DNA from: a virus
DNA: 29,443 nt
Strand: one strand, 5' to 3'
IMG/VR virus record: IMGVR_UViG_3300047359_000305
Coordinates: 1 to 29,443 of that record
A model generated the notes under the pieces. That model had not been told where the DNA came from. It was given only the letters and a program-made list of their open reading frames with translations, and ran no database searches. A program made the position numbers and the translations under genes. Within the stretch, counting starts at the first letter, position 1; every line of letters starts with the position of its first letter. Of the stretch, positions 2,621 through 26,476 are shown in pieces.

Positions 2621-2675
2621 TTTCAAATGGGCTCCCTTTCCTTATTAGGTTTAGTGGTTAATAGTAACTTTATTT

Positions 2676-4451: not shown

Positions 4452-4748
4452 TTATGAATTTGCAAAAACGTCAGGACTTCCGGTGCTAGCCGCATTTGGT
4501 ACCCAACTACCATGACCTCCAGTTGCATCACCTTTTCGGTGTACTGGTATGTTGTTAACAAACACTGTATCTGATCCTGCATCTGCTGGATCTCCACAAA
4601 CTGTAGTATCTCCTACCCTAACAGTTGCTTCGTTATTAGTAAACACATCAGGAGATCCTACGTTATAACTAGTTTGATGATAAGGTCCTGGACTAGGTGA
4701 AGCATGTCCTTCGTGTACGTCTACATTTGTTCTTACTACTTCTGGCAT
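4452..4748 (-). CDS. PAAR-domain tail spike tip protein
   Basis: A 98-aa protein with the glycine-rich, short-strand pattern of PAAR proteins: repeated GSPDVFxN (about 32-38 and 90-97), VRVGDTTVCGD (43-53) and a histidine-rich stretch VHRKGDATGGHGSW (69-82). In this family histidines and a cysteine hold a zinc ion at the tip of a sharp cone that caps the central spike (gp5.4 in T4) and helps pierce the envelope. The start overlaps the final base of the giant fibre gene, so the two are translated together. Small size matches the family. Confidence 0.85.
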   Translation of the reverse strand: MPEVVRTNVDVHEGHASPSPGPYHQTSYNVGSPDVFTNNEATVRVGDTTVCGDPADAGSDTVFVNNIPVHRKGDATGGHGSWVPNAASTGSPDVFANS

Positions 4749-7700
4749 TACATTCTCCCTACAACTACTTCTATTACACCTTCGCCTGCGGTGTCTTTAT
4801 CTTCAAGTGCTTTACCTATTACTGCGCCGCCTATAAAATAACGTGCTACCATTGCATAGCCTGGCTTAGTACCACAGGTTACCATCATATCACCTTTTTG
4901 TACTTTACCTAGTACCTTTACTGGTACTCTACCTTGTAGTGCTACTACTGCACCATCTTCATTTGAGTTCATGCAGTATGCAGGGAATTCGGAAATTACT
5001 CCTGCTACTCTAGTGTTAGCAAATCCTGTTGATATAGTAACTTCTTGTTCACCCCCAAATGCTACAACTGTGCCTGGTTCATAATCAGCATCGCTGGTAT
5101 AGACTTCTGCCAAGTCAGCGTAGTTAGCAGTATTAGAATTACCAGCAAAGGTTGTTGCTCTTAGTGTTGATGAACTAGGAATATATGATAGTCCGCCAGT
5201 ACCACTTGAATGTTTATCAATGTTGATACTTTGTGCGCCATCATTTGCAACAAACGCAACATTCCATTCACTTGCATCACTTGATGTATTTGTAACAGCA
5301 ACGTCTGTAGCACTTGCACTACCTGTTAGTGTAATAGTACTGCCAACTTGTGTTGCTGTAACATTACCTGCACCAGCAATAGTAACTGTGCCTGTGGTTT
5401 CACTTCCGCTTATGCCTACACTAGTTACTGTGTTAGTATTTGTATCCCAAGGAACACTAACAAACATTTTATCGTTGCTGTCAAGTTGTACTGCATATGT
5501 TTTAGCAACACTTGGTGTAGCACCAATTTTAACAAGTCCAAGTGTTGAAGACGTTGCAGTTGAATATGTTGTGTCAGTGTTTGTATCTGTAAACAATGCA
5601 CCTGTTGGTACTGCTGTTTTAACATTATCAAATGCCCAGTCTGAGCTAATTGATGTAGTAGTTGCACCATCAGTAGGAGTACTACTAATGGCTCTAAATG
5701 TGTTAGTATCTGTAAACAATGCATTTGCAGGTACTGCTGTTTTAACATTGTCAAACGCCCAATTACTTGATATTGCTGATGTAGTTGCACCATCTACTGG
5801 AGTATCGTCTACATCAATTATAGTATCAGTTGAACTGATTGTTACTGTAGGTCCTGATGAAGGAGTAATAGTTGTTGCCCCTGATCCTACAAAATTAATA
5901 TTAGTACCAGAAGTAATTGCTGTTGCTTCACCACTGTTGGCTTTAATTCCCCAACTTGTATATGTATCAGCATCATTTGTACCTGAGTAACCTAAGTCAG
6001 CAAGTGTACCTAAATCTTCTATGCTAAGTGTTTTAGAACTGATGTCAGTGATGTGACCAAAATCATCAACACTAATACTTTGTATAACTGTATCGTTTGC
6101 TGAGTTGCTAACGCTTTCTTGATTGTTAGAAGTGTCAGCATGTGTAACTGTAATTTTATTATTTGCACCAGCAACATTAATTGCGGCACTGCCTGCAAAT
6201 AATACATCCTGGTTAGTAGCACCATCTGATAATCTTACTCTTGTTTGATCAGCGGCAGTATCACCTGTTGCATTATTTACTGTTAGGGCATACGTTGTAT
6301 CAACACCTGTTAGTGTAACTGTATTACCGATTTGTGTTGCTGTAACACTGCCACCGTCTGCAATAGTAATTGTTCCACTTGCTTCACTTCCAGTTATACC
6401 AACTTTAGTTTTAGTAACACTGAAACCACCAGTAATACTACTATAACTAAGATCGCCGCCACCGCTAAACAAGTTACGTATTTGAGCATCTGTACGTTGT
6501 GCGCCTTCTGAAAAACTAAAGTTACCAGTAAGTGCGTCATAAGTTAAATCGCCACTGGCATTAAATAATCCACGTATGTCTGCATCTGAACGATCAGTAT
6601 CAGTAAAACTAAATTGACCTGTTGCACTGTTGTATGTTATATCACCAGTAGCACTTAATAGTCCTCTAATGTCAGCATTGCTTGGTCCTGTGTATTCAAA
6701 TACACCTGTGTTTTCAGTATAGGAAAATGATCCTAATCCGCCTGCGTCACTTGCACTTACGTTAGAACGTACATCACCTGATCCAATAGCACTCTGTGTA
6801 AAACTAAACTCACCTGTACTGTCATCGTAAGTAACATCACCACTTGCACTAAACAAACCACGTATGGTATTGTCAGTACGTTCGTTATATGTTAATTCAC
6901 CTGTAGCCGCATTATAACTTAAATCACCTGATACACTTAAAGCACTTCTTACTTGTGTTCTACTTGCACCAGTAAGTGTCATAGCACCTGTGCTATTGTT
7001 GTATGCTAATGATCCATAATATACTTCGCCAGCACCGTCTGGTGTGTTAGCACTTGTGATACTTGCTCTTGCATTTGATGTTGTAAATTTAGTAACACTA
7101 AACACACCTGTGTTTACATTGTAATTAAGATCGCCACTTGCACTAAACAAGCCTCTAATATCGCCATCTGTCTTTTCGTCGAATTCTATTTCACCTGTAG
7201 CCGCATTATAAGTAATACTACCTGTTACGGTAAATGCACTACGTATTTCATCTAACGATATACCTGTGTATGTGTAAGTTCCGTTGTTAGTGTCGTATTC
7301 TAATCCACCATAACGTGTTACACCATCTCCGCCAGTTTGTGCGGCACTAAAGTGAGCTCTTACTTCTGAAGCACTAGGACCTGTATAACTAATAACACCT
7401 GTGGTGTTGTCATATGTTAAACTACCATCGCCTCCTAAGTCAGTTGCACTTATTGCACCTCTGGCTCTTGCATTTGTAAAGTATAAGTTTGTTGGCGATA
7501 ACGGACTTGTAACTTCCTGTACATCGTCTGTATTCAATACTATACTGTTGTCTACGTTTGCACTTTTACTGTTAACTTCAAATGTTTTACTATTAGCATA
7601 AGTTTCTACAAAGTCTTTGTTAGCGGCGTCTGTGCTTACTGTAGGCGTTGCTATACGCTCTACTTTGAAGTTCGCTAAGTCTAGGTTACCTTGTAATGCT

Positions 7701-10700
7701 TGTGTTGCTGTTAAGTCTAAATAACCAGGTCCAATTTTGCCAGGTTGTATAACGTTTGCATGTGTAAGTCCTAGTCTTCTGTTTACATAACTGCGTACTG
7801 CACTTTCAGTTGGTACAGTATCACTTGCATTGTCAGTCATTGCATCGTCAGTTGAAAACTCACTAACTGCAACACCACGTTTAAATCCAATACCGTCTAA
7901 GTTTGAAAGAGCAATACTTGCTGAGAATGTAACAGTACCTGTGCCTTGATCAACCTTAAAATAGTCACCTACTCTAAAGTTACCATCTTGGTCAGTGGTT
8001 ACATAAAACACACGACCTTTGCCTTCTTCAACTACTTCTTTTGGTTGACTTGCCGCTATCTCAGGCTGTCCATAAATTTCTCTTGGGTAACTAGATGTTT
8101 GATAACTTCCTGTACCAATGTCAAGTAAATCATGTCCTGTACATCTTAGTGTACTAATACCTACAGTAATTCTAGCAACGTGTCCTGCTTGTACACCTGC
8201 TCGCATTGTAGGTTTGTCTGAGTATGATCCAAATGATTTTGTTAGTGCCGGAGTAAAGTCAACCTCTGCATATAGTTGTCCAGTAGTTGCTTTATCTCTG
8301 TATGCTGTAATTTCGTGTACAGTATCATTGAAAGCAAATATGTAACCTGTACCTGCACTGTTTGCTGTGTCTATTCTAGACTTTTCATTTACATCAAAGT
8401 CAACATCAAGACGTATTGTTGTATCGCCAACTTGTCCGGATCCTGCTACAGCACCTGCTGTTTCATCTAATACTAATTTTACATAATCGTATGTTTCTCT
8501 AAGAGTAATACGTGCTTCATTTACTGGCAAGCCTGCAACATCATATGCAAGTACACGATATACTTTGTCTGGGTCATCATCATATACAAGAGCAGTACTA
8601 GGTCTTGTTGGGTTAACATCTACAATGCCGTTGTACTTAACAACTTGTCCATTTCTAATAATTACATTAGTTGCGTTAGGAACGTCAACTTGTATACCAG
8701 GTTTACTTGCTATACCGACTGCAATGTTAAGTTGATAAACTTGTGGACTTGTTCCGTCAACTGCTGTAACACTTGTTACTTCATATCTGTTTAAGAATAC
8801 TGGTTCGTTTTCTAAGTCGGTGCCACCATTGTGATCTATTTCAACTTCACTTACATTAAATGGTTCGTAATCTAAGTTAGTAACATAAAGTACTGTATCG
8901 TTTTGTTCGTTAGGATAGTCTGATGTAGTAAACGCTGTACCAATTTGTATTGTATCTTGGTCAACAAACACTTGGTCGCTTACTTCTAATGGATCACTGC
9001 CTTTAGCAACAAGAGCAAAGTCACCGTATGCTGTTGAACCGTTTAATGAACGTATGTCTGATCCATTCTCTGCTAGATAACTTATGTGGTTATAGTAACA
9101 GAATACACTAACAAGCTCTGAACGTGCATTGTTGGTTGTGTACACACCATAACCTAAATCGTTAATTTGTGTAAAGTCATTACCTAACATACTGATGTTA
9201 CCAGCAGTAAGTATTTCTATGTTGTAGGGCACCGTAGGCAACGCTACAGCGGTCTCGTTTACAATTTGGTAGTAAGCAAGCGTCCAAGGTGTGTTATCGT
9301 TTAAAATAAGACGATATTCTCCTGCACCTACTCCTACTGTGTCTGCTTTGTCTATTTGAAAACGTGTGCCGTCAATAAAGAAACTAGTTGGAGTTTGTGG
9401 TTGTCTAAACACATTATCAATAACAATTTCAGTTGGACTGTTTATTTGTTTAATACGTGCATCTAAGTTACCAGCAAATCCGTCAATAAACATACCACCT
9501 GCAAAACTTACATCAGGTGCTTTTGATTTTGAGAAACTTGATGCTGTTTGTGTATAAGGTGACTTAGTAAGTATTTGTCCTTCTGGATCTAACACTTCCA
9601 TAAATCCGCCATGCCCTTGTACACTGATATTTCTTATGATAGTTGCGTCATTCATTAACAACACATCCATCTCATCATTGTCTTTAGGTGCGTTAAAGTT
9701 TCCTCTAATTATTTCTGCTACTGAACCAATTAAGTCTTCAACTACACTTTGTTCAGCACTTTCAAGTAACATACTTGTTTGTGTTTTTAGATGGTCTATA
9801 GCCGCCGCTGTTTCTGTAACTTGATCGCCTGGTAGTTGTCCTTGATATGTTAGTGCGGCAAATAATGTTTCATTAAAGCCTCCATATAACATATCCAATG
9901 CCGCGGCATCAATTATATAACCTACGTCACGTCTACACTTTGCTACATCATATACTAAACTTGGGTACGTTGTAGTAATAAAATTAATTGTGCTGTCTGC
10001 TAGTTGTTTCTTTGTTGACGCTGTACTTAATGTTTTATATGCTTCGTCATAGTCGCCTACATTTTCTGCATAGTTGTATATGTGATTGTTACGGTCTGCT
10101 AGGTAGTGAGCACCAAAAGGAAGATTGCCAACTACTGCTGGATCTAGTCCAAGGTTTACAGCATCTCTTTTAAAACGTATGTTTGCATATGGACTAGCAC
10201 TTGCACCAGGACGTGGTCTAATAATACTACGTCTAAACTCATCACCTTTAATAGAAGTATTGTTTGGAACCTTCATTGGAAAGTGTTCAAAGTAAATTCC
10301 ACTTTCAACTCTAATTGTTATTTCAGGATAAGATGTGCCTGCGGCTTTAAATGCACTGTATGGAACTCCTGGAATAGGATTGCCAAACTTTAGTTCCTCG
10401 CCTTGTACAAATGTACCATCTTCAACATTAACAATAAATTCATCATAGTTCTCTGTTGATTGTATATTGTATTCTTCTATAATAGCAGTTGCACCACTAG
10501 TCATACCAAGTATTCTAAAGCCACTGCGTAACTCTGTTTGTGCATCTAAGAAACTAGCACCTTTGCCAACATTAAGAACTTTAAAGTCGCCTTGGTCTGC
10601 TATTGCTATGATAGTACTTTTCTTTTGGCTTACTTGACTGTCATATGTAATAAACTTTTGATATGGACCTAAGCCCTTGCTTGCTCTATTAACAACACGT

Positions 10701-11158
10701 TCTGCTTCTCTACAAGCCGCATTTAAACTAGCAAATGCTGTCCCTGGAGTTCTACCACGCTTCTCGCCGTATGTGTTATCATCCTTACCGTTAGGACTAA
10801 CAAATAATACATTGGTGCTTGTTTGGAATGGTGTGCTTGCTACTAGATAGTAGTCTTCGCCATCAGAATATTCTAAACTTTGTGTGTTAGGATTGTATCT
10901 AAATAAACCATCAGTTGGACTAGGACGATCTTGTTCGCCACGCATCATTATTTCAGTTACGTTGCCAACTACATCAACTTTTATCTTATCACCAAATGCA
11001 GGCTTACCTCCACCTGTTACACCATCACCTATATACAGTTGATCGTTTTCGGTGTCGTAGATAACTTCACCATTAAGCGGTGTAAATGCTTGTCTATCTG
11101 CTGTTGGTCCGCGTCTTACTAATATACTACCGCGATCTGGCGTAGAGTCTTCCGACAT
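4748..11158 (-). CDS. Giant tail fibre protein, 2136 aa
   Basis: The N-terminus (SILVRRGPTADRQ...LNGEVIYDTENDQLYIGDGVTG) matches the Mtd-type fibre attachment motif RRG...L..GE..YD...LYIGDG. A long beta-rich part follows (residues about 110-1100) with VFVSPNGKDDNTYG, TAFASLNAACREAERV and a beta-helix-like IRVESGIYFEHFPMKVP. Residues about 1232-1582 hold a repeat array, and 1788-1862 a 41-residue duplication. The C-terminus carries NYADLAEVYTSDADYEPGTVV and ends in VIGKALEDKDTAGEGVIEVVVGRM, resembling the C-terminal domain of cyanophage fibres and possibly an autoproteolytic or chaperone domain of the peptidase G2 kind. It should form a long trimeric receptor-binding fibre. The small gene at 11162 precedes it by 3 bp and PAAR follows. 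Confidence 0.9.
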   Translation of the reverse strand: MSEDSTPDRGSILVRRGPTADRQAFTPLNGEVIYDTENDQLYIGDGVTGGGKPAFGDKIKVDVVGNVTEIMMRGEQDRPSPTDGLFRYNPNTQSLEYSDGEDYYLVASTPFQTSTNVLFVSPNGKDDNTYGEKRGRTPGTAFASLNAACREAERVVNRASKGLGPYQKFITYDSQVSQKKSTIIAIADQGDFKVLNVGKGASFLDAQTELRSGFRILGMTSGATAIIEEYNIQSTENYDEFIVNVEDGTFVQGEELKFGNPIPGVPYSAFKAAGTSYPEITIRVESGIYFEHFPMKVPNNTSIKGDEFRRSIIRPRPGASASPYANIRFKRDAVNLGLDPAVVGNLPFGAHYLADRNNHIYNYAENVGDYDEAYKTLSTASTKKQLADSTINFITTTYPSLVYDVAKCRRDVGYIIDAAALDMLYGGFNETLFAALTYQGQLPGDQVTETAAAIDHLKTQTSMLLESAEQSVVEDLIGSVAEIIRGNFNAPKDNDEMDVLLMNDATIIRNISVQGHGGFMEVLDPEGQILTKSPYTQTASSFSKSKAPDVSFAGGMFIDGFAGNLDARIKQINSPTEIVIDNVFRQPQTPTSFFIDGTRFQIDKADTVGVGAGEYRLILNDNTPWTLAYYQIVNETAVALPTVPYNIEILTAGNISMLGNDFTQINDLGYGVYTTNNARSELVSVFCYYNHISYLAENGSDIRSLNGSTAYGDFALVAKGSDPLEVSDQVFVDQDTIQIGTAFTTSDYPNEQNDTVLYVTNLDYEPFNVSEVEIDHNGGTDLENEPVFLNRYEVTSVTAVDGTSPQVYQLNIAVGIASKPGIQVDVPNATNVIIRNGQVVKYNGIVDVNPTRPSTALVYDDDPDKVYRVLAYDVAGLPVNEARITLRETYDYVKLVLDETAGAVAGSGQVGDTTIRLDVDFDVNEKSRIDTANSAGTGYIFAFNDTVHEITAYRDKATTGQLYAEVDFTPALTKSFGSYSDKPTMRAGVQAGHVARITVGISTLRCTGHDLLDIGTGSYQTSSYPREIYGQPEIAASQPKEVVEEGKGRVFYVTTDQDGNFRVGDYFKVDQGTGTVTFSASIALSNLDGIGFKRGVAVSEFSTDDAMTDNASDTVPTESAVRSYVNRRLGLTHANVIQPGKIGPGYLDLTATQALQGNLDLANFKVERIATPTVSTDAANKDFVETYANSKTFEVNSKSANVDNSIVLNTDDVQEVTSPLSPTNLYFTNARARGAISATDLGGDGSLTYDNTTGVISYTGPSASEVRAHFSAAQTGGDGVTRYGGLEYDTNNGTYTYTGISLDEIRSAFTVTGSITYNAATGEIEFDEKTDGDIRGLFSASGDLNYNVNTGVFSVTKFTTSNARASITSANTPDGAGEVYYGSLAYNNSTGAMTLTGASRTQVRSALSVSGDLSYNAATGELTYNERTDNTIRGLFSASGDVTYDDSTGEFSFTQSAIGSGDVRSNVSASDAGGLGSFSYTENTGVFEYTGPSNADIRGLLSATGDITYNSATGQFSFTDTDRSDADIRGLFNASGDLTYDALTGNFSFSEGAQRTDAQIRNLFSGGGDLSYSSITGGFSVTKTKVGITGSEASGTITIADGGSVTATQIGNTVTLTGVDTTYALTVNNATGDTAADQTRVRLSDGATNQDVLFAGSAAINVAGANNKITVTHADTSNNQESVSNSANDTVIQSISVDDFGHITDISSKTLSIEDLGTLADLGYSGTNDADTYTSWGIKANSGEATAITSGTNINFVGSGATTITPSSGPTVTISSTDTIIDVDDTPVDGATTSAISSNWAFDNVKTAVPANALFTDTNTFRAISSTPTDGATTTSISSDWAFDNVKTAVPTGALFTDTNTDTTYSTATSSTLGLVKIGATPSVAKTYAVQLDSNDKMFVSVPWDTNTNTVTSVGISGSETTGTVTIAGAGNVTATQVGSTITLTGSASATDVAVTNTSSDASEWNVAFVANDGAQSINIDKHSSGTGGLSYIPSSSTLRATTFAGNSNTANYADLAEVYTSDADYEPGTVVAFGGEQEVTISTGFANTRVAGVISEFPAYCMNSNEDGAVVALQGRVPVKVLGKVQKGDMMVTCGTKPGYAMVARYFIGGAVIGKALEDKDTAGEGVIEVVVGRM
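5573..5794 (-). repeat. Two tandem 41-residue fibre repeats (123-bp period)
   Basis: Two copies of a unit starting D-G-A-T-T (codons beginning at 5794 and 5671) continue [S/T]-[A/S]-ISS-[N/D]-WAFDNVKTAVP-x2-ALFTDTNT. The copies are nearly identical in DNA and protein, so the duplication is recent or kept alike by gene conversion. Confidence 0.85.
6412..7455 (-). repeat. Array of degenerate fibre repeats (about 30-45 aa each)
   Basis: About eleven copies of a unit with core R-x-L-[F/L]-S-A-[S/T]-G-D-[L/I/V]-[T/S]-Y-[N/D]-x-x-T-G-x-F-[S/E]-[F/Y]-T. Longer units containing GGxGSxxY alternate with short ones. The pattern is typical of a trimeric beta-fibre shaft. The copies differ enough in DNA that they are old. 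Confidence 0.85.
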
Positions 11159-18314: not shown

Positions 18315-18322
18315 TATTTATG
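18315..18322 (-). promoter_or_regulatory. Candidate late promoter box (CATAAATA) for the spike gene
   Basis: CATAAATA on the minus strand, one mismatch from TATAAATA, 27 bp before the spike ATG and overlapping the stop codon of the upstream nuclease gene. Confidence 0.55.
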
Positions 18323-19022
18323 CGAACTTCTCGTAATATGTGTAGACTCTATTGTACCATTCGTTACGCCACTCATCATACTCATGTGGCCATACATCAA
18401 ACTGTTGATATGTTTCTCCTCCGAGCTCCATACCGTCATCTCCGCGGCTACACATAAAGATATGTCCTTCACGTATGTTAGTGCCGTAGATTTCGTTGTG
18501 TGCTTCTGCGTATGCTACTAGCTGTAAGAAGTAGTTTTGTACATACTCTAGCTTCTTAGGCTTATTAGTCTGTTTAAAGTCCATAATACACGGATTGCCT
18601 TTGTACTTGCCAACTAAGTCAGTAGTACCAGCATACATCTGTGGAACATATAGTGCAACTTCACTGCCCCATATTTCGTCTACATCAACCATTGCATTGT
18701 CACGTACTTGTGTAGCCATTGCGTGAGCTTTCTTAGCAAATGGATTGCTACCTGGAGTAGGCCATTCGCCAAACTCAATGTAGTCTTCTAAGTACTTGTG
18801 CATACGTGTTCCAACGCCTGCCGCTTCGGTTGTAATTTCTCTTGCTTTAGTTTCGCCAACACGTTTACGCCACGCAATAAGTCCTGACTTATCACTAGTA
18901 GCATCAAGTATAGTAGTAACACTAGCAACAGCGCCTCCGTCAGGCGTCATGTACTTTCTTTTACCGTCTACTTGTTTTCTGTTTATTGGCTGGTAATCAA
19001 ACGTCTTTGTAATTAAGGACAT
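18318..19022 (-). CDS. PD-(D/E)XK exonuclease (RecB/MGME1-like)
   Basis: A 234-aa single-domain nuclease. The catalytic layout is visible: VASVTTILDATSDK near the start, GTRMHKYLED with H75, EVALYVPQMYAGTTDLVG with E121 and D135, IMDFKQTNKPKK with D148-x-K150, and the QLVAYAEAHN helix with its Q-x-x-x-Y pattern. These residues bind metal ions and attack DNA; relatives act as single-strand exonucleases in recombination or DNA end processing. The start lies 26 bp inside the end of the NfuA-like gene, so translation is probably linked. It is transcribed from the strong sigma70 promoter at 19334-19362. Confidence 0.9.
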   Translation of the reverse strand: MSLITKTFDYQPINRKQVDGKRKYMTPDGGAVASVTTILDATSDKSGLIAWRKRVGETKAREITTEAAGVGTRMHKYLEDYIEFGEWPTPGSNPFAKKAHAMATQVRDNAMVDVDEIWGSEVALYVPQMYAGTTDLVGKYKGNPCIMDFKQTNKPKKLEYVQNYFLQLVAYAEAHNEIYGTNIREGHIFMCSRGDDGMELGGETYQQFDVWPHEYDEWRNEWYNRVYTYYEKFA

Positions 19023-19311
19023 TTACGGTTCCCTTGTCATAGTATGGATCGACTTCGCTATCTTCGTCATCAACTGCATCGACCAATTCTACTTCAGGAA
19101 CGTTTGCTTTGATAATTCTTTCAACACCCATTTTGAGTGTCATCTTACTACCTGCGCAACCTGCACATGCTCCACTGAGCTCTAGTAGTAATTCACCGTC
19201 GTCATAACTCTTAAAATTAATGATTCCACCGTGCCTTGCAACAGCAGGTTTAATCTGAGAAGCAATAATTGATTCTATTTGTTCTACGATTTCTTCGTTT
19301 GTTCGAGACAT
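18997..19311 (-). CDS. NfuA/NifU C-terminal-domain-like Fe-S protein
   Basis: A 104-aa protein. Residues 6-80 are a NifU C-terminal-type domain: IIASQIKPAVARHGGIINF, then ELLLELSGACAGCAGSKMTL with the iron-sulfur-binding C49-A-G-C52, then MGVERIIKANVPEVELVDAVD. In bacteria this domain carries 4Fe-4S clusters to target proteins. The remaining acidic tail (DDEDSEVDPYYDKGTVNVL) is not part of the family core. The gene follows a perfect-consensus promoter and overlaps the PD-(D/E)XK nuclease gene; some RecB-type nucleases of this fold carry an Fe-S cluster, though cluster cysteines are not evident in this one. Confidence 0.9.
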   Translation of the reverse strand: MSRTNEEIVEQIESIIASQIKPAVARHGGIINFKSYDDGELLLELSGACAGCAGSKMTLKMGVERIIKANVPEVELVDAVDDEDSEVDPYYDKGTVNVLNYKDV

Positions 19312-19366: not shown

Positions 19367-19693
19367 TTATTGACCTTTAGACATGGCTCGTTTTGCCATT
19401 TGGGCTACTTTCTTGTTTCCCGTGTCTTGTTGCGGTGCAGAAGTATCTGCATCTGTATCAGTTTTGAGTGTTATACCGTCTTGGTTAAAGTTCTTAACCA
19501 TAGACTTTACACGCTCATCACTGTCATAAGCCGCTTTGAACGTTCTGTAGTCGAACTGTTCGCGGTTACTATTGCGCATTAGTTTGTTAAGTGCATCAAA
19601 AGAAAACTCGCTTGCTTGCTTTTTCAAGTTTGCATCAGCGAGTCTGTTTCTAAGAATTAAAACTAATTTGGAAGCATCACTTGCTTCGTTTAC
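19367..19693 (-). CDS. Frame-shifted extension of the 281-aa protein, or separate small gene
   Basis: The frame from 19693 to the stop at 19367 is open for 108 codons and has no ATG or GTG in its first 38. The first usable start inside it is a TTG at 19627 without a Shine-Dalgarno sequence, giving 86 aa. Upstream of that TTG the frame continues without a stop (VNEASDASKLVLILRNRLAD...) back into the last codons of the 281-aa gene. The product is helical and charged: FSFDALNKLMRNSNREQFDY, RTFKAAYDSDERVKSMV, then a polar low-complexity stretch TDTDADTSAPQQD and a basic end. It is most simply read as the C-terminal 108 residues of a -1 frameshift product of 389 aa. Function unknown, probably structural. 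Confidence 0.65.
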   Translation of the reverse strand, partial: VNEASDASKLVLILRNRLADANLKKQASEFSFDALNKLMRNSNREQFDYRTFKAAYDSDERVKSMVKNFNQDGITLKTDTDADTSAPQQDTGNKKVAQMAKRAMSKGQ

Positions 19694-19699
19694 TTTTTT
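19671..19699 (-). promoter_or_regulatory. Candidate programmed -1 frameshift site
   Basis: The minus strand carries the heptamer A AAA AAG (19699-19693) in frame at the end of a nine-A run, with TAA as the very next codon. After 5 nt comes a hairpin with arms GAAGC (19687-19683) and GCTTC (19675-19671) and a 7-nt loop. A AAA AAG is the E. coli dnaX slippery sequence. A slip of -1 leads into the frame open to 19367. Confidence 0.6.
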
Positions 19700-20535
19700 T
19701 TTGAAAGAATAGTACCTAATTTTCTGCTTCTCTCTACGCTTTCACGTTTTGCACGACCTGCTTCTTCTTCGCCACCTACTGCGGCATCAGCGGCGCCCAT
19801 GCCATCGTCATCTGCAGGTAGTTCAGCGTCAATAGCGCCAGCTTCTGCATCTACGGTTGGTTCCATTTCTGCTTCGCCTTCAGGTGCTACTTCGTCGCCC
19901 ATTGGTTGCTCAGGCATTTCTTCGCCTGTCATTAGTCCAACACCTTGAGTTGTTGCTTCACGTGTTGCTTCTAATGCTGTATATAATGCTTCAAGAGCTG
20001 GTTTCACAATATTAACAAAAGCCTCTGACTGCTCTGAACCCATTTCATCACGAATTGAGTCTGCAAGTTCTAACATTGACTCTGTTTGCATTTCTGCTGT
20101 GTCTTCCATCCAACCTGTAATGCGGTTCACCATATCTTTTGCCGCCATTACTAATTCAGCTTGCTCTTCAGCACCTTCACTTACTTTTTTCTTCTTCTTG
20201 TCCTTAATAGCCTTTTTCATAGGTTCTTTTTTGTCGCCGTCTTTGTCCATGTCAAGGAAGTCTGGCTTAGCACCTTCACCTATGTTCTCACGCTCTGCAA
20301 TTTCAGCATTCAATACATCAAGGAAGAGCTTTGATTTTTGATATGCTTCGCGCTGTACTGAGTTAAAACTTTCAGTAGTTTCAACGTTAAATAAATCTGT
20401 ACGTAATTTGTTCTGAGCATTTTGTAACTGCTCTAATGTAAATGTTTCTAATGCAATACGCTTGCCGAATCTTTTGGCAAGACTCTCGTTAAGCGCCTTT
20501 GCTGTTACTGGTTTTGATATCTCTCTGATGTTCAT
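19690..20535 (-). CDS. Putative prohead core/internal structural protein, 281 aa
   Basis: N-terminus MNIREISKPVTAKALNES, with L15-N16-E17|S18 as a possible head-protease site. A helical region follows, then DFLDMDKDGDKKEPMKKA with a run of lysines (KDKKKKK, about 115-121), further helices, and a very acidic C-terminal part (about 200-262, rich in E, D, A, P, G). The end is basic and lysine-rich. Alternating charged helices and an acidic stretch suit a scaffolding/core protein, and similar proteins occur in the structural regions of marine T4-like phages. A ribosome-binding site (CAGGAAGAG) and a late-type box at 20569-20576 precede it. It ends on the slippery sequence described separately. 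Exact role unknown. Confidence 0.7.
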   Translation of the reverse strand: MNIREISKPVTAKALNESLAKRFGKRIALETFTLEQLQNAQNKLRTDLFNVETTESFNSVQREAYQKSKLFLDVLNAEIAERENIGEGAKPDFLDMDKDGDKKEPMKKAIKDKKKKKVSEGAEEQAELVMAAKDMVNRITGWMEDTAEMQTESMLELADSIRDEMGSEQSEAFVNIVKPALEALYTALEATREATTQGVGLMTGEEMPEQPMGDEVAPEGEAEMEPTVDAEAGAIDAELPADDDGMGAADAAVGGEEEAGRAKRESVERSRKLGTILSKKK

Positions 20536-20568
20536 TTTAATTCTCTTCCTGTGAACTGTTGTTATAGT

Positions 20569-20576
20569 TATTTATC
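20569..20576 (-). promoter_or_regulatory. Candidate late promoter box (GATAAATA)
   Basis: GATAAATA on the minus strand, one mismatch from TATAAATA, 34 bp before the ATG at 20535 and a few bases after the stop of the 143-aa gene. It is the same octamer as at 11409-11416. Confidence 0.6.
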
Positions 20577-20580
20577 ATCG

Positions 20581-21012
20581 TTAATAGATATACTGGTCCA
20601 ATCTTTCTTTTGCAGATTGTGTTCTACAGTATGCAATATCGTATCTGCACTGTGCTACATCGTATTTAATCGAGTCTTTTGTTACTTTCATCATGTGTCT
20701 ATGAAACATTGCGTCATTAAAGTTCTTCATAACTTCATAATCTAGTTTCATAATCTCATTTGTATTGCTTTCTGGATCTGTAGCAAGTGTCTTTGCTAGT
20801 GCTACTGCACTTGTTTTACAGAACATTTTATCAATTTCTTTATTGTTTTTAGTATCAAATACTAAAAAGCCAAAATTTGTTTCACGTATAATAATATGTT
20901 TAATACGTATACTCTTGCCTTTGACATAGGGAAACAGGCTCATATCAATATTGCTATTAACCAAAGTTTCTAATTCTTTTACTAATTCAGGACTAAGTGT
21001 TTTAGAGTTCAT
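20581..21012 (-). CDS. Hypothetical protein of the head/structural block, 143 aa
   Basis: The protein has beta strands in the first half (GKSIRIKHIIIRETNFGFLV, FDTKNNKEI) and helices after it (MFCKTSAVALAKTL, then a C-terminal helix with regularly spaced Y, R and C in QCRYDIAYCRTQSAKERL). The pattern resembles conserved but uncharacterised proteins of T4-like cyanophages. The start lies 11 bp inside the end of the 67-aa gene. Function unknown. Confidence 0.7.
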   Translation of the reverse strand: MNSKTLSPELVKELETLVNSNIDMSLFPYVKGKSIRIKHIIIRETNFGFLVFDTKNNKEIDKMFCKTSAVALAKTLATDPESNTNEIMKLDYEVMKNFNDAMFHRHMMKVTKDSIKYDVAQCRYDIAYCRTQSAKERLDQYIY

Positions 21013-21205
21013 TTACCATCACCAGAGTAGATCCATTGCGCTGTACTTTACTTACTAGACTTTTACGTATTAAGTTCTCAATTATGGCTTGTTCTCGTTC
21101 ACTAAATGTTTCGATTGCTTTAATGCCTTCAAGCCGTTCTAATACTTCTGATTCTTCGTTAGTCTGAAAAATCACAAAGTCCTGTAATAGCTCGTTGAGT
21201 TTCAT
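21002..21205 (-). CDS. Small protein with winged-helix-like pattern, 67 aa
   Basis: N-terminus MKLNELLQDF has the same M-[K/R]-x-x-E-hydrophobic lead seen in the neighbouring genes. The middle, FSEREQAIIENLIRKSLVSK, followed by NGSTLVMVNEL, gives a helix-helix-strand order that would fit a small winged helix. No L-x-E cleavage site at the usual place. Its ATG follows the stop of the 145-aa gene directly. Function unknown. Confidence 0.65.
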   Translation of the reverse strand: MKLNELLQDFVIFQTNEESEVLERLEGIKAIETFSEREQAIIENLIRKSLVSKVQRNGSTLVMVNEL

Positions 21206-21643
21206 TTATTGTCCTTGCACCATGTTTTGTATAATTGGGTCAAGTTCTTTTGTCTTGTGTACAGTTTTAACTGGTTCGCCTGGTTTTGGCTTTGGATTGG
21301 TTAGTGTAACTTCATCGCCCTTGATGTCGTCCACTTCGAAGTCTGCAACTTTCTTGCCACCGTCTGTAGGCATAGTAATACTTTGCCCTCGCTTCAATAC
21401 GGCCTTCTGTAATGCTTTTGCATTTTTAGCGGCTACTTTTTTAGCAAGTCCTTTGCCCACACCTTGTGCGCCTTTGACTGCCGCCGCTCCTACTTTCTGT
21501 GCTGCCTGTGCGCCTGCTTTGGCGCCGGCTTTCGCAATACCTGTAGCCGCTTTTGCCGCTACACCTGCTACTGCTCCGATTGCAGGGATGATTTCATCTA
21601 ACTGTTCTTCATTTACTTTTTTGTTAAACTCGTTAAATCTCAT
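21206..21643 (-). CDS. Ala/Lys/Gly-rich histone-H1-like putative internal head protein
   Basis: The 145-aa protein begins MRFNEFNKKVNEEQLDEI, a capsid-targeting-like lead with L15-D16-E17 as a possible cleavage site. Residues 18-85 are Ala/Gly/Lys-rich (IPAIGAVAGVAAKAATGIAK and following), like the tail of histone H1 or the basic part of DNA-compacting proteins; a membrane-active helix is the alternative for residues 18-40. The last third is a small polar domain (VADFEVDDIKGDEVTL, PKPKPGEPVKTV). It overlaps its upstream neighbour by 4 bp. A DNA-binding role inside the head is inferred, not shown. Confidence 0.7.
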   Translation of the reverse strand: MRFNEFNKKVNEEQLDEIIPAIGAVAGVAAKAATGIAKAGAKAGAQAAQKVGAAAVKGAQGVGKGLAKKVAAKNAKALQKAVLKRGQSITMPTDGGKKVADFEVDDIKGDEVTLTNPKPKPGEPVKTVHKTKELDPIIQNMVQGQ

Positions 21644-21978
21644 CTTCTTCTCGCTGTTCTTTTTCTAGGTTTCAATTTAGATCTAGAATGTACATTCAAT
21701 ACACCTAAACGCTTACTAGTCTTTCTAGCTCTCTTGGTTCTGTTAGATTTGATGCTCATTACTGCACCTTTTCTACGCTTCGCCTTTTTAATGTTAATAC
21801 TACTACCAACATTCTTAGGAGCAGTGCAAGTGCTAGGTTTGCTTACAATGCGTCCTCTACGTGTTCCGCTAGTACATCTATACTTACGAACAATTTTGTT
21901 TCCGCTACGTCCAGCAATTTGAACATAACCTTCTTCTAGGAACTCTAAGTCGATATCTTCGAGATCATCGTACTTCAT
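21640..21978 (-). CDS. Arg/Lys-rich putative internal head protein, second tandem paralogue
   Basis: 112 aa. An acidic lead of 16 residues (MKYDDLEDIDLEFLEE|G) ends in L-E-E followed by glycine, a good match to a T4 gp21-type site, which would release a very basic mature protein. A conserved module follows: KIVRKYRCTSGTRRGRIVSK and CTAP, with two cysteines about 17 residues apart. It is shared with the preceding gene (KVVRKYRCSGGKRHGRIVSK...C). The remainder is a string of R/K/S typical of DNA-neutralising proteins. The start overlaps the upstream stop by one base, so the pair is co-translated. Confidence 0.75.
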   Translation of the reverse strand: MKYDDLEDIDLEFLEEGYVQIAGRSGNKIVRKYRCTSGTRRGRIVSKPSTCTAPKNVGSSINIKKAKRRKGAVMSIKSNRTKRARKTSKRLGVLNVHSRSKLKPRKRTARRR

Positions 21979-22259
21979 TAACGTCCCCTTTTATTCAGTG
22001 CCGCTACTCTACGTGACGCTGGATTGACTCTCTTTGTTCTACGTGCCTTACGTGTCATCTTGCTACCAATACGTGCTTTCAATCGTTTCATAGCGAAACG
22101 CTTCTTCATGTCTGGTGCCGCAAAACATTGTTGTATCTTAGATACAATACGTCCATGGCGCTTGCCTCCGGAACAGCGATACTTACGTACAACTTTCTTT
22201 CCGCTCTTAGCCCATACACGCTTCTCGTCAAGGCTCGATGTCAACTCTCTTAATAACAT
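21978..22259 (-). CDS. Arg/Lys-rich putative internal head protein, first tandem paralogue
   Basis: 93 aa, starting MLLRELTSSLDEK, with L10-D11-E12 as a possible head-protease site. The module KKVVRKYRCSGGKRHGRIVS with a second cysteine (QQCFAAP) is shared with the next gene. The C-terminal half (KRFAMKRLKARIGSKMTRKA, RRTKRVNPASRR) is strongly basic and should bind DNA. There is no clear Shine-Dalgarno sequence; an ACTAAATA box at 22264-22271 lies directly in front, so the message might be nearly leaderless or the gene may depend on read-through. Confidence 0.75.
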   Translation of the reverse strand: MLLRELTSSLDEKRVWAKSGKKVVRKYRCSGGKRHGRIVSKIQQCFAAPDMKKRFAMKRLKARIGSKMTRKARRTKRVNPASRRVAALNKRGR

Positions 22260-22263
22260 ATTG

Positions 22264-22271
22264 TATTTAGT
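22264..22271 (-). promoter_or_regulatory. Possible late-type box (ACTAAATA) directly before a start codon
   Basis: ACTAAATACAATA on the minus strand, the same 13-mer as at the 26476 gene, but only 4 bp before the ATG at 22259. A promoter here would give an almost leaderless message, so it may be non-functional. Confidence 0.25.
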
Positions 22272-22285
22272 TTTTTTGTAAAGTG

Positions 22286-22531
22286 TTATTGTGGAAACGA
22301 CATTAGCAGTACAACAATAGTTGATAATAATCCTGCTACAATAGTTCCTGCGGCTCCAATAATAACCTTAGTCATTGATGCATTGCCGTCTTTAATGTCT
22401 TTGTGTACTTCTTGAATCTTTTCTTCGACCTTGTACAAACGGTCGTCTAAACTTTTATATCGAAGAGCGCATAGGTCAACGTGAGCTTCTAAGCTCTCTT
22501 TTTCTAATTCTGTTGTAGGTAGTTCAGACAC
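22286..22531 (-). CDS. Small membrane-anchored coiled-coil protein (possible XhlA/holin-like)
   Basis: 81 aa. Residues 5-50 form an amphipathic coiled coil (ESLEAHVDLCALRYKSLDDR, LYKVEEKIQEVHKDIKDGN) and residues 54-78 one hydrophobic helix (KVIIGAAGTIVAGLLSTIVV). The order coiled coil then C-terminal transmembrane helix is that of haemolysin XhlA-type and some holin or spanin-associated proteins. A lysis role is possible but not proven. The ribosome-binding site is GGAGAAC. Confidence 0.65.
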   Translation of the reverse strand: MSELPTTELEKESLEAHVDLCALRYKSLDDRLYKVEEKIQEVHKDIKDGNASMTKVIIGAAGTIVAGLLSTIVVLLMSFPQ

Positions 22532-22581
22532 ATTGTTCTCCGTTATTGTGTATTAAGTAAACTCTGTCGTTAGCCTTAATT

Positions 22582-22992
22582 TTAGTCAACTAGTGAAAAA
22601 GATATATTCTTGTCTTTTCCCTTAGTTCTAAACAATGCCTTGTCTGTTGTTATAGTTTCGTCTAAGCCTATAATGATCGGTATAAGATCAAAATCTTTTG
22701 TAAGCATTGCTAAGTCTATTGCTCCTTCAAATTCTACTTCAAAGTCGAACGACCAAACGTTTTGCTTACCTATGTATTTATCACCAAATGAACTTTTCAC
22801 TACGCTTAATTTGCCAAAACTTGGACTTTTGTCATAGTTTAAATTAACACGTAACCCTATTGTTTGTAATACGGTTTGGAAATTAGCCTCTTGCTTGTAA
22901 GCATACTTGTCATCATCCTGCCTGCGACTGCTGGTGTTTGTGATGTCTATTAATGTGTCGATACGAAACTTCATACTATTACTTATAGCCAT
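22582..22992 (-). CDS. Hypothetical protein, likely virion structural, 136 aa
   Basis: Mostly beta-strand pattern with aromatic residues (NFQTVLQTIGLRVNLNYD, KLSVVKSSFGDKYIGKQNVW, SFDFEVEFEGAIDLAML), which suits a tail or head decoration domain. No family recognised. Its ATG abuts the T tract of the terminator of the upstream gene and lacks a Shine-Dalgarno sequence, so expression must be low, by read-through, or from an internal start (an ATG at 22974 also lacks one). Confidence 0.65.
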   Translation of the reverse strand: MAISNSMKFRIDTLIDITNTSSRRQDDDKYAYKQEANFQTVLQTIGLRVNLNYDKSPSFGKLSVVKSSFGDKYIGKQNVWSFDFEVEFEGAIDLAMLTKDFDLIPIIIGLDETITTDKALFRTKGKDKNISFSLVD

Positions 22993-23027
22993 AAAAAAAG
23001 GGTCCAGTAAAAACTGAACCCTTTTAG
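22993..23027 (-). terminator. Intrinsic terminator of the 115-aa structural gene
   Basis: Minus-strand stem of 10 bp (arms 23013-23022 and 22999-23008, one G-T pair, extendable by A-T pairs) with a TTTT loop, followed by a run of T residues that touches the ATG of the next gene. It ends the transcript from 23423. Confidence 0.88.
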
Positions 23028-23075
23028 TGTGACGTCTGCCTTACGGCTGTAAATCACGTTCCTAAGGTAAAGGAA

Positions 23076-23423
23076 TTATGTTGCGCTAAACGCATCCAAG
23101 TCACGAATAAGAACAACTTGAGCTGATAAATCAATACCGTCTACTGTTCCTAATGCTTGATGTCTACGAGTCAAAGATGCCGCATCACTGTGATGTCCAT
23201 CGATGATTGCAAAGATTTTACCTGCTGTACCTGTTGATACATACATAAGTGGTGAAAACTCACGTACAATCGCTTCGATTGCTCCGCCGATTCCGTCTTT
23301 TGCCGCTAATGAAGCGCCAGCGTCGATTTCGATCGCTGTAATTTGTGATGTGCTGTACTGCTCACCATGGTCGTAGCCTGATCCTGCGCCTGCTACTGGG
23401 TTTGTTCTTGTAAATTCAGCCAT
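23076..23423 (-). CDS. Putative abundant structural/decoration protein, 115 aa
   Basis: A polar, alternating strand-helix protein with AEFTRTNPVAGAGSGYDHGE near the N-terminus, ITAIEIDAGASLAAKDGIGG, YVSTGTAGKIFAIIDGHHSD and VVLIRDLDAFSAT at the end. The gene is a unit of its own: a late-type box (23490-23497), a strong TAGGAG ribosome-binding site, the gene, and a strong terminator. This layout suggests high late expression, as expected for a major structural protein. The family was not recognised; a small capsid decoration or tail protein is likely. Confidence 0.7.
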   Translation of the reverse strand: MAEFTRTNPVAGAGSGYDHGEQYSTSQITAIEIDAGASLAAKDGIGGAIEAIVREFSPLMYVSTGTAGKIFAIIDGHHSDAASLTRRHQALGTVDGIDLSAQVVLIRDLDAFSAT

Positions 23424-23489
23424 TTTATTTCTCCTATAATTTATCTAATGACAACATTAAACGACGACTCTGTCGCTTTTTGTTATATG

Positions 23490-23497
23490 TATTTAGC
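23490..23497 (-). promoter_or_regulatory. Candidate late promoter box (GCTAAATA)
   Basis: GCTAAATA on the minus strand, 67 bp before the ATG at 23423. Two mismatches from TATAAATA. It is followed by a short hairpin (GCGAC-AGA-GTCGT) in the leader. The unit it heads has its own terminator. Confidence 0.5.
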
Positions 23498-23525
23498 CTT
23501 TTGAATAAAAATAGGTGAATATATG

Positions 23526-23843
23526 CTATTTTTTAAGTCTCTTGTGCAAGTTGCGTAGTTGTGTAATACCTGCGGGGCCTGCATCTACTATATCGTCTAT
23601 CATGTCTATGATAGGTAGATATGCTTGTACAAAGGTACTAGGTACACCTTTTCCGTCTTGTGCTAGTTCAGTAAAGCGTCTTGCTTTAACAGCATTTTCT
23701 ACGCCTACCAAGTAACCGTAAAGAGCAACTTGCCTGTCTTTGGACAAACGCTTAACACGCTCGCCTCTAATATTAGCCCATGCACCTTCGTCTAGGTGTT
23801 TCTCAACTAGTCCTTCTTCGTACATGTTCTTAATAAAATCCAT
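23526..23843 (-). CDS. Hypothetical protein of the head block, 105 aa
   Basis: N-terminus MDFIKNMYEEGLVEKHLDEG, with L17-D18-E19|G20 as a possible head-protease site. The remainder is helical (SKDRQVALYGYLVGVENAVK, FVQAYLPIIDMIDDIV, ITQLRNLHKRLKK). It directly follows the 112-aa gene (adjacent stop and start). Function unknown; the leader suggests an internal head protein. Confidence 0.65.
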   Translation of the reverse strand: MDFIKNMYEEGLVEKHLDEGAWANIRGERVKRLSKDRQVALYGYLVGVENAVKARRFTELAQDGKGVPSTFVQAYLPIIDMIDDIVDAGPAGITQLRNLHKRLKK

Positions 23844-24182
23844 TTACTTAACTAAGCCCTTTGCTTTACAGAACTTCATCATTTTTTCTAAGCCTGCTGA
23901 ATTTTGAATGTCCTTCATAATCTTCATCTTAGTGTCTGGTGGCATCTGCATTTTAAGTATTTTCATAAGTGCAACTGCCATTGGGCGTTCAACACGTATT
24001 TGTTTGCCGTCATCAGTTTTTACTGTGCGGATTGGATTTTTAATGTCTGGATGATCTTCACTGTCTTCAATTTTCATTAATTGAACTTGCATTGCTTCTT
24101 GTTCGAAATCAGTTTCACTGTCTCCGCCCACGCTCATGTCAAAGTCTAAATCATCGCCTTCGTACATTTCATTGATTTTCAT
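23844..24182 (-). CDS. Hypothetical acidic protein of the head block, 112 aa
   Basis: N-terminus MKINEMYEGDDLDF has the shared lead motif; the first 50 residues are very acidic, followed by a basic helical part (ERPMAVALMKILKMQMPPDT, MKIMKDIQNSAGLEKMMKFC). A GGGGAA ribosome-binding site precedes the ATG. The acidic-basic layout suits a scaffold or head-internal protein. No family recognised. Confidence 0.65.
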   Translation of the reverse strand: MKINEMYEGDDLDFDMSVGGDSETDFEQEAMQVQLMKIEDSEDHPDIKNPIRTVKTDDGKQIRVERPMAVALMKILKMQMPPDTKMKIMKDIQNSAGLEKMMKFCKAKGLVK

Positions 24183-24197
24183 AGTATTCCCCTATTG

Positions 24198-25355
24198 TTA
24201 TCTTTCAACTGCTCTGTTGTATTTACTAAAAGTTTTACGTGGCACAAGTTTTATGTCGCCTCCTGGATGTGCTAATACATATCCTTCGCCGCCATCAACT
24301 GAATCGTCTTTGTTTGACATACTCTGTTTTACAGGTGCCCCTGGTTGGTTGTCAAGTTGAAAAATTACATCGTCCTTGACTTGTTGTATCTTTGCAACTA
24401 CTTCCCATAGTGCATTGAAACCTTGTTGGTTGTTTGTTATATACTCGGCAATACGCTTTTGTTTAACACCACTTATCTTATTGTTGTTGTTAACCCAATC
24501 CATAAAGTCACCGCCTAGGTTATCTAAGCCTGTGTCTACTTTGCTGTTCATATAAGCATAAAAGATCTTTGGTAAGTCTTTCATTTTTAATTCTGTTAGT
24601 GTGTTGATGTTTATTAAACTATCCATTGCCGCGGCATCTTTAGCAATAACTGCTTTAAGTTCTTTAACACTAGTATCGTCTATTTGTGGTGCTGACTGTG
24701 CTTGTACTGGTGGTACAACTAACACATCATTGCCTTCAAATATATCTGCATTAGACAAAGGACCTTCACTGCCTACACTATCAACTTCTCTGTGTATAAC
24801 AATGCCTGTTTTACTTGCGCCAATTTGCTCTCCTAAGGAAGAGTCTGTTGTTACTTTATATGTAACAATGTTAGGAGTAAACACATAATGTCCATCTTGT
24901 ACTTTTGGTGTATCAAAGTATAGCATGTCTCCTTTAAAGAATCCTTTGTAGTCTTTAGGAGTTGCTTTTTCAAATGCTGTATATGCATTTTTCATCTTGC
25001 CAATCATTACGCCATAACCTTCTGGGTTCTTTGCAAAGCCCGGACGGTTCTTAAACATTGTTTCTAAGTCGTCTGCTGACTTTGCTTTGCCATCGTATCC
25101 TTTGGCACTAAATCCTGACTTGTCTGTGAATATAAAGTTACCATCAGTGTCGCGCCCAAATATGACTGCGGGACTTCCATCCCACTTAATGGTGACATCT
25201 TGGACACCGCTTTTTTCCATATTGATAAAACTTTGTAAAGCTCTGTTAGCACCTTTACTTCCTTCCCAAAAAACTATATCCTCAGCATGTTGTATGCGAG
25301 CTTCTGCTTCTAATAAAGGCTTTCTGTTTTTATTTGCAAATTCTCTAAGCCTCAT
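24198..25355 (-). CDS. Ligase-like nucleotidyltransferase with capsid-targeting-like leader
   Basis: 385 aa. N-terminus MRLREFANKNRKPLLEAEAR, with L14-L15-E16|A17 matching a T4 gp21-type cleavage site. The core carries the covalent nucleotidyltransferase motifs of DNA/RNA ligases: motif I K57-W-D-G60 in TIKWDGSPAVIFGRD, motif IV EGYVL (357-361) and motif V IKLV (K369). Lysine 57 would form the AMP adduct. The middle part (about 215-345) is an insertion of mainly helices. No separate OB-fold is evident, so it may be a minimal or diverged ligase. It overlaps the pol-beta-type gene by 11 bp. Substrate unknown; DNA or RNA end joining is the family expectation. Confidence 0.8.
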   Translation of the reverse strand: MRLREFANKNRKPLLEAEARIQHAEDIVFWEGSKGANRALQSFINMEKSGVQDVTIKWDGSPAVIFGRDTDGNFIFTDKSGFSAKGYDGKAKSADDLETMFKNRPGFAKNPEGYGVMIGKMKNAYTAFEKATPKDYKGFFKGDMLYFDTPKVQDGHYVFTPNIVTYKVTTDSSLGEQIGASKTGIVIHREVDSVGSEGPLSNADIFEGNDVLVVPPVQAQSAPQIDDTSVKELKAVIAKDAAAMDSLININTLTELKMKDLPKIFYAYMNSKVDTGLDNLGGDFMDWVNNNNKISGVKQKRIAEYITNNQQGFNALWEVVAKIQQVKDDVIFQLDNQPGAPVKQSMSNKDDSVDGGEGYVLAHPGGDIKLVPRKTFSKYNRAVER

Positions 25356-26226
25356 AACGATTGTATCCCGATAGTTGTAGTATTCTATTCATTTGTTTGT
25401 CTGCTAAACCTTCTTTAGTTAGAAGTTCATCTGGAACACCAATATCTTTTACTGTTCCGTTTTTAGCAAAACTATCTTTAATCTTTTGTACTTTGTCAGC
25501 AGGGTAGTTTGCTTCAACTGCTGATAGCAACGATTCAAAACTGTTTAAGTCTTTACCACTAGTTAAGTTTAATGCTTTAGCAATACCGTTTTTATCTTTG
25601 ATTGGCTCTTGTACTTTAGTATCAACATTCTTTTTAGTAAAGCCCTTGCCGTCTTTACGTTGTGCAGGTACACGCTTGACTCTTACAAGTCCATCTGACG
25701 GGCTCCATATCCAACGTTCTATTTCTACTGGACGGCCATCGTCAATTGTTTCTTCTGATGCTCTGCTATCATGGAAAGCGGCAATAGTAGCAATCATTAA
25801 ATTACGGAATACACCTTTATACTTTGACTCTTTGTCACTTGGTGAGTGATAGTATGTTTTCATCCATTCAGGGTCACCTGGCATAAAGTCTATTTGTACA
25901 TAACCTGTACGTGGTTTTGTTGTTTGCTTACTTTCATCGTAGCCTTCAATCTTAACTTTTGTCATTATGACTGAACTTTTAGCAATGTCTAATACTAACG
26001 GACATGCTTCTATCTTTTTAACTAGCTCTGGTATCTTATCTGCATCAACTTGTATAGCAACATCAATGTCACCACTAAACTCTTTTTTACCGACTGAACC
26101 AAGTACATTGTTTTGTAGATCTATTCCTAGATGCTTTTCCATTGTTGCAAGTGTAGGTTTGATTTCATCTATATGAATAGGTCCTACACCAGGCATTGAT
26201 CCGCCTTCAAAGAGTTTATTTGTCAT
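25345..26226 (-). CDS. Pol-beta-type nucleotidyltransferase
   Basis: 293 aa from the ATG at 26226; the frame runs on to a TTG at 26241, which is less likely. The active site shows GSVGKKEFSGDIDV (43-56: GS...D53-x-D55) and the third aspartate in YVQIDFMPGD (D113), which together bind two metal ions. The family adds nucleotides to tRNA, antibiotics or proteins, or acts as antitoxin. The C-terminal half is helical and may recognise substrate; it ends YNRYEA. L5-F6-E7|G8 could be a head-protease site. The gene sits between an 86-aa gene and the ligase-like gene, with short overlaps on both sides, so the three are co-translated. Confidence 0.82.
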   Translation of the reverse strand: MTNKLFEGGSMPGVGPIHIDEIKPTLATMEKHLGIDLQNNVLGSVGKKEFSGDIDVAIQVDADKIPELVKKIEACPLVLDIAKSSVIMTKVKIEGYDESKQTTKPRTGYVQIDFMPGDPEWMKTYYHSPSDKESKYKGVFRNLMIATIAAFHDSRASEETIDDGRPVEIERWIWSPSDGLVRVKRVPAQRKDGKGFTKKNVDTKVQEPIKDKNGIAKALNLTSGKDLNSFESLLSAVEANYPADKVQKIKDSFAKNGTVKDIGVPDELLTKEGLADKQMNRILQLSGYNRYEA

Positions 26227-26476
26227 TCTTTTTGCTCTCAATAATTTTGTTTATTCCACGTTTGAACTTGCGTGGATCACCTGATCGTATACTATTTAAA
26301 AAACGTCTTTCTAATTCACCTGCGGTGTTTTCATCATATGTATTGCTAATTCTATTTAATAAGTTAATAGAACTTTCAATAATGTTATTTGCAGTTGTTT
26401 CAATTAAACGATCATTATCTTGGCTACGGCCCAAGTTGTTTAATTCGTCTAATATGCTTCTTGTACGTTTTTTCAT
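26216..26476 (-). CDS. Small helical hypothetical protein, 86 aa
   Basis: Charged helices throughout (MKKRTRSILDELNNLGRSQD, LIETTANNIIESSINLLNRI, LERRFLNSIRSGDPRKFKRG). Proteins of this pattern are common in T4-like cyanophages and pelagiphages but have no assigned role. It is first in a minus-strand unit behind an ACTAAATA box, and its stop overlaps the start of the nucleotidyltransferase by 11 bp. Confidence 0.7.
   Translation of the reverse strand: MKKRTRSILDELNNLGRSQDNDRLIETTANNIIESSINLLNRISNTYDENTAGELERRFLNSIRSGDPRKFKRGINKIIESKKNDK

Follow-up and report, generated by a model that had tools for sequence, protein, structure and literature searches.

Among phage structural genes, frameshifting has been described chiefly in tail chaperones and in a small number of capsid proteins. 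In phages A2 and PSA and in T7 gp10B, a low-level frameshift extends a particle protein, and these capsid extensions stay fused. In E. coli, the frameshift sites of dnaX and IS911 combine the heptamer A AAA AAG with a downstream stem-loop. In lambda, gpG and gpGT arise by a −1 slip near the end of the upstream structural gene, just before the tape measure gene, so that an abundant short product and a minor long one are made, and this tail assembly chaperone frameshift is described as conserved across tailed phages (Xu et al. 2004, as cited in PMC10885494 and PMC9024508). A different process operates in the T4 head, where short N-terminal peptides ending in L/I-x-E direct proteins into the capsid (Mullaney and Black 1996; PMC9026906). 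The protease gp21 cleaves after L/I-X-E, and for IPIII the first 10 residues are enough to direct it to the capsid (PMC9026906).

The locus described here, in which a structural gene (A) is followed by a second frame (B) in the −1 phase, combines features of these systems. The window, the whole stretch of 29,443 nucleotides that was analysed, is a 29-kb virus record. A-B resembles gpG/gpGT in the position of the slip, the short and long products and the conservation across phages, but no sequence relation of A or B to tail chaperones was detected, the locus does not precede a tape measure gene, a protease-like site is present at its junction and relatives encode B as a gene of its own. Like the extensions of A2, PSA and T7 gp10B, B would be added to a particle protein at low level; unlike them, it exists unfused in relatives, and its removal by cleavage is predicted. 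The heptamer is that of dnaX and IS911, and in many loci a downstream stem-loop follows their logic, although A-B has no general upstream Shine-Dalgarno (SD) stimulator (present in 10 of 67 frameshift loci). As in T4, a short N-terminal peptide ending in an L/I-x-E-like motif is found on A and on unfused B, and a clade member encodes a Peptidase_S77 protease; B in the frameshift state differs in that it lacks its own targeting peptide, and would ride on A. The gene pairs GAP32_293/294, CBB_298/299 and PA5oct gp247/gp246 share the gene order before an exonuclease, an A-homologous virion protein and a small protein at the position of B, but they are two separate genes with no frameshift, and their sequence similarity is weak. 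Recoding of phage structural genes is already known, and the new part is the proposed link to capsid targeting and processing. Searches of the open-access literature found no earlier report of the A-B frameshift.

A slip site conserved between two frames

Gene A of the window (19690–20535, minus strand) encodes a 281-aa relative of jumbo-phage virion structural proteins. It has an N-terminal helical domain, a long helical hairpin, a disordered acidic linker and a C-terminal basic helix ending in SKKK. Its 3′ end reads TCA AAA AAA AAG TAA. The slippery heptamer A AAA AAG (19693–19699, minus strand) is in frame 0 inside an A9 tract (19694–19702) and abuts the frame-0 stop TAA (19690–19692). The −1 frame is open from GTA at 19693 for the 108 codons of B (19370–19693, minus strand) and ends at TAA 19369–19367. 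The reading frames thus give A alone at 281 aa and a fusion A-B at 389 aa. Within B, ATG first appears at codon 39, which lies in the conserved domain, and the sole earlier start is a TTG at codon 23. The initial annotation had read the heptamer, the open −1 frame, the two product lengths and the lack of ATG or GTG in the first 38 codons in the same way. It had also described a hairpin with a 5-bp stem starting 5 nt after the heptamer. The spacing was correct, and the stem (GAAGCA-AGTGA-TGCTTC, 19671–19687, minus strand) was measured at 6 bp, with a folding energy of −8.4 kcal/mol and a shuffle z of −1.7.

Relatives of gene A were found in hundreds of uncultivated viral contigs, and removal of duplicates left 147 distinct loci. 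In 124 of these, an in-phase A AAA AAN is followed by a frame-0 stop 0–7 codons on (0 codons in 60 loci, 1 codon in 46) and B is open in the −1 frame; the other 23 have no such heptamer and encode a separate B with its own ATG. The X XXY YYZ pattern typical of programmed −1 frameshift sites therefore stands in frame 0 just 5′ of the stop in 124/124 frameshift-type loci, as AAAAAAG in 107, AAAAAAA in 15 and AAAAAAC in 2. Within A genes, A AAA AAR occurs at 138 of 159 lysine pairs in the last 25 codons and at only 8 of 275 elsewhere. This arrangement is far beyond chance. The proposal that a programmed −1 frameshift fuses two frames of the structural block is thus supported by the comparison of the 147 loci. 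As judged from these sequences, programmed −1 ribosomal frameshifting at A-B is almost certainly a conserved trait of a large clade of T4-like large phages, which are uncultivated and for the most part marine.

The initial annotation had also considered that a tenth A was lost by assembly or sequencing error and that A-B is in truth a single 389-aa protein. Long A tracts are error-prone on some platforms, and the only support for this reading was the general caution of that annotation. The out-of-frame layout, however, recurs with tracts of different length: among the 67 non-redundant frameshift loci, 53 have 9 A's, 8 have 10, 4 have 8 and 2 have 6, and every length keeps A AAA AAN in phase. 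In all 124 loci the stop lies at most 7 codons from the slip, compared with about 21 codons on average by chance, and the relatives without heptamer supply B with its own start. The probability of an error is negligible.

Slippage of the RNA polymerase on the A9 tract could also produce an A-B message. Most tracts have 9–10 A's, a length that permits transcriptional slippage in some bacteria. Two loci (L059 and L065), however, have only 6 A's and others 8, with the exact heptamer in phase in all. The last codon is AAG far more often than AAA (107 versus 15), and AAG is also what ribosomal slippage of tRNA-Lys favours in E. coli. RNA structure is also enriched just downstream of the slip: in the first 15 codons of B, the mean z against synonymous shuffles was −1.22 in frameshift loci (Stouffer −10), compared with −0.42 in the same region of separate-gene loci. 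Because 6-A loci exist, transcriptional slippage is unlikely as the common mechanism and improbable as the source of A-B, although it could add to the effect in long tracts. The downstream hairpins differ between loci in where they lie and how strong they are, and are lacking altogether in some. RNA structure is therefore likely a helper of the ribosomal slip rather than a fixed element.

B as a protein in two interchangeable states

Several lines of sequence comparison indicate that B is a real protein. Between close pairs the median dN/dS in the B frame was 0.16, consistent with purifying selection, and in shifted frames dN was usually equal to or higher than dS. As at other programmed −1 frameshift sites, the selected −1 frame usually has no usable start of its own. 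An ATG before the conserved B domain is absent in 64 of the 67 frameshift loci, and in 55 no start codon (ATG, GTG or TTG) occurs from the upstream stop up to the domain. These counts bear on whether B might be translated alone, from a weak internal start that is used by re-initiation or by coupling. A GTG overlaps the stop of A in L012, L140, L147 and L158, and L065 has an SD-preceded ATG besides its heptamer, as such translation would predict. Yet an SD-preceded start lies in the first 45 codons of B in only 2/67 loci, and in the window a start at the first ATG would fall within the domain. We consider independent translation of B very improbable. With a −1 frameshift, the peptide across the junction of the window would be SKKKVNEASDASK.

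Searches of PHROGs, Pfam and PDB sequences gave no convincing match for the B family. AlphaFold predicted a helix-strand-helix-helix-strand-strand order with moderate confidence. By our own reading the predicted fold is winged-helix-like, also with moderate confidence, and fold searches of the PDB returned winged-helix matches that were weak only. In one locus (L023:4942–5088), 49 codons of the B frame are followed by an interruption, close to where the stored locus ends, through either decay or error.

The initial annotation had held that homologues with a separate downstream gene, its own start and its own ribosome-binding site would speak against a frameshift. Such genes do exist in a minority of the relatives, and an SD sequence precedes the ATG of B in 13 of 16 separate-gene loci. 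The heptamer is lost in these loci, which makes the case for frameshifting stronger. In a tree of A, well-supported branches force at least four changes between the frameshift and the separate-gene state. One frameshift locus, L120, is nested in a separate-gene group, and L065, L140 and L158 adjoin such a group. L140 and L158 retain a start-like VKISE/VRINE sequence in the −1 frame. L065, L140 and L158 look intermediate between the two states. The 6-A heptamer and the SD-preceded ATG for B in L065 lie together at L065:4941–4985 (plus strand). All cultured outgroups examined have A and B as separate genes, and the direction of change is not settled by the A tree. The comparison of genomes strongly supports the existence of two frames joined by a conserved slip site, as well as selection on B and the alternation of this arrangement with a two-gene state. 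One locus with two interchangeable states in related phages is a natural experiment on what the frameshift replaces. Standard gene calling misses or truncates the A-B product in many environmental phage genomes.

Relatives of A and B-position proteins in cultured jumbo phages

The family phrog_14154, 'virion structural protein', was matched by 75 of 83 A members. The A profile also matched proteins of Phosso, PA5oct, Atu_ph07, GAP32, RaK2 and Vibrio phage 2.275.O, with E values of 2.8e-17 to 1e-5 against the jumbo-phage A family (GAP32_293, PA5oct gp247 and Atu_ph07 gp044). A was predicted by AlphaFold to be helical, with a disordered acidic linker. With A and B, tblastn searches of 50,697 phage records returned matches only once the core consensus served as the query. 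In the virion table of CBB, ORFs 298 and 299 are listed with 10 and 2 peptides (PMC5259590). We take these to be gp298 and gp299 of the RefSeq record, which are annotated as similar to GAP32_293 and GAP32_294. We infer that A and B are located inside the head and not elsewhere in the particle. A role of A as a gp22-type scaffold was considered and rejected, as in the clade member G005 the gp21-type protease, the major capsid protein and a scaffold-like 364-aa ORF sit in a separate cluster.

In GAP32, CBB and 2.275.O, a gene for a protein of 111–118 aa follows A just before an exonuclease gene. In PA5oct, gp246 directly follows A (gp247); gp245 had been considered as the counterpart of B and was dropped for gp246 on N-terminal similarity. 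The exonuclease is the synteny anchor common to the cultured jumbo phages and the window, where A-B is followed by NifU-like and PD-(D/E)XK exonuclease-like genes (the latter phrog_298, 18318–19022, minus strand); in the cultured relatives, too, it is the exonuclease that comes next. Near its C-terminal end, B has a conserved V..MA..A motif (VAQMAKRA in the window, 19385–19408, minus strand), and a similar V..MA motif is present near the C-terminal end of GAP32_294 and 2.275.O_026. The B profile scored weakly against the cultured B-position proteins, above controls for GAP32_294 and 2.275.O_026 only. Fold matches for B in BFVD include a 118-residue protein, the same length as 2.275.O_026. For the B-position genes of Atu_ph07 and Phosso, profile comparison showed no homology to B. 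Synteny, size, N- and C-terminal motifs and the fold match suggest that B and the cultured proteins may be homologous. The small NifU-like protein between B and the exonuclease (window 18997–19311, minus strand) is missing at that place in G005.

Junction motif and possible head targeting

Two features absent from the initial annotation are a protease-like [V/I/L]-x-E site at the junction and a targeting-like peptide on unfused B. A [VILM]xE motif lies at most 14 aa past the slip in 65 of 67 fusions, compared with 20% expected. In the window this candidate prohead-protease site is VNE/A (19682–19693, minus strand), assigned by motif match. Most junction sites have V at P3, where T4 favours L/I. 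The hydrophobic P3 is partly forced, since in the −1 frame the T of the frame-0 stop is read as the second base of a codon; only the glutamate is informative. Of the loci with an immediate stop, 82% have this glutamate at residue 3. Separate B proteins (16/16) begin with a short N-terminal peptide ending in [IL]xE, for example MKVSEILKE or MRVSDIILE, and five cultured B-position proteins likewise start with a short peptide ending in a similar motif. A itself has LNE[STN] near its N-terminus in 82 of 83 members; in the window A starts with MNIREISKPVTAKALNE, followed by S, a capsid-targeting-like peptide by motif match (20482–20535, minus strand). The genes of a 357-kb clade member include those for gp23, a T4-type portal and a Peptidase_S77 prohead protease. 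The window is a fragment, and the protease is known from G005 (Peptidase_S77 match, 4.6e-26).

These features suggest the following pathway. Most ribosomes would terminate after A, and a fraction would slip on A AAA AAG to produce A-B, in many loci with the aid of the downstream hairpin. A would enter the prohead by its own N-terminal targeting peptide and carry B along. A T4 gp21-type prohead protease would then cut at [V/I/L]-x-E just past the slip and release mature B inside the head. The fusion to A might thus do the work of the targeting peptide that B has lost, and separate B would use its own targeting-like peptide, which ends in the same motif. The explanation as a whole, comprising frameshift, carriage and cleavage, is very likely. 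The step in which B is carried into the prohead by A and cleaved is, taken by itself, slightly favoured. The chances are evenly balanced that the frameshift is a targeting device, with B carried in by A, cut free, and repeatedly swapped for a separate gene with its own targeting peptide. If B is carried and then cut free, translational recoding would be linked to capsid targeting and maturation; this would suggest a way to set the amount of an internal head protein, and makes a direct prediction for mass spectrometry.

The frameshift may also be real and the [V/I/L]-x-E uncut, so that A-B stays fused as a minor virion protein, comparable to the extended capsid or tail proteins of T7, A2 and PSA, and the motif reflects the N-terminus of B or the hairpin. 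The codon for the glutamate is often in the hairpin stem, as is the GAA of GAAGCA in the window. However, the glutamate is retained in the near-hairpinless loci L069, L051 and L015. Where the slip site is further upstream (L020, L033, L040 and L054), the motif stays with B, and a variable region separates the motif from the B domain. An uncut fusion is a serious possibility that falls somewhat short of an even chance.

A targeting-like N-terminal peptide was found in 7 of 24 genes of the surrounding cassette and in 0 of 34 others, by a pattern that was defined after seeing the data, and this excess is only suggestive. In the window (19690–26476) and in L097:12400–18946, several cassette genes start with M-x-x-x-E/D-hydrophobic and have a nearby [LIVM]xE[AGSND]; such genes may together encode head proteins that are targeted and processed. 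Two adjoining small basic proteins (window 21640–22259, minus strand) have the common motif KxVRKYRC..G.R.GRIVSK; they are apparently tandem paralogues and possibly head-associated. A DUF6267 protein (2.6e-35) adjoins a nucleotidyltransferase-like protein (window 24198–26241, minus strand), and the pair is also found in the 357-kb relative (L097). Elsewhere in the window, a 2136-aa tail-fibre-like protein has many imperfect internal repeats (4748–11158, minus strand), and the gene at 1667–2626 (minus strand), judged by eye only, looks like a ribose-phosphate pyrophosphokinase.
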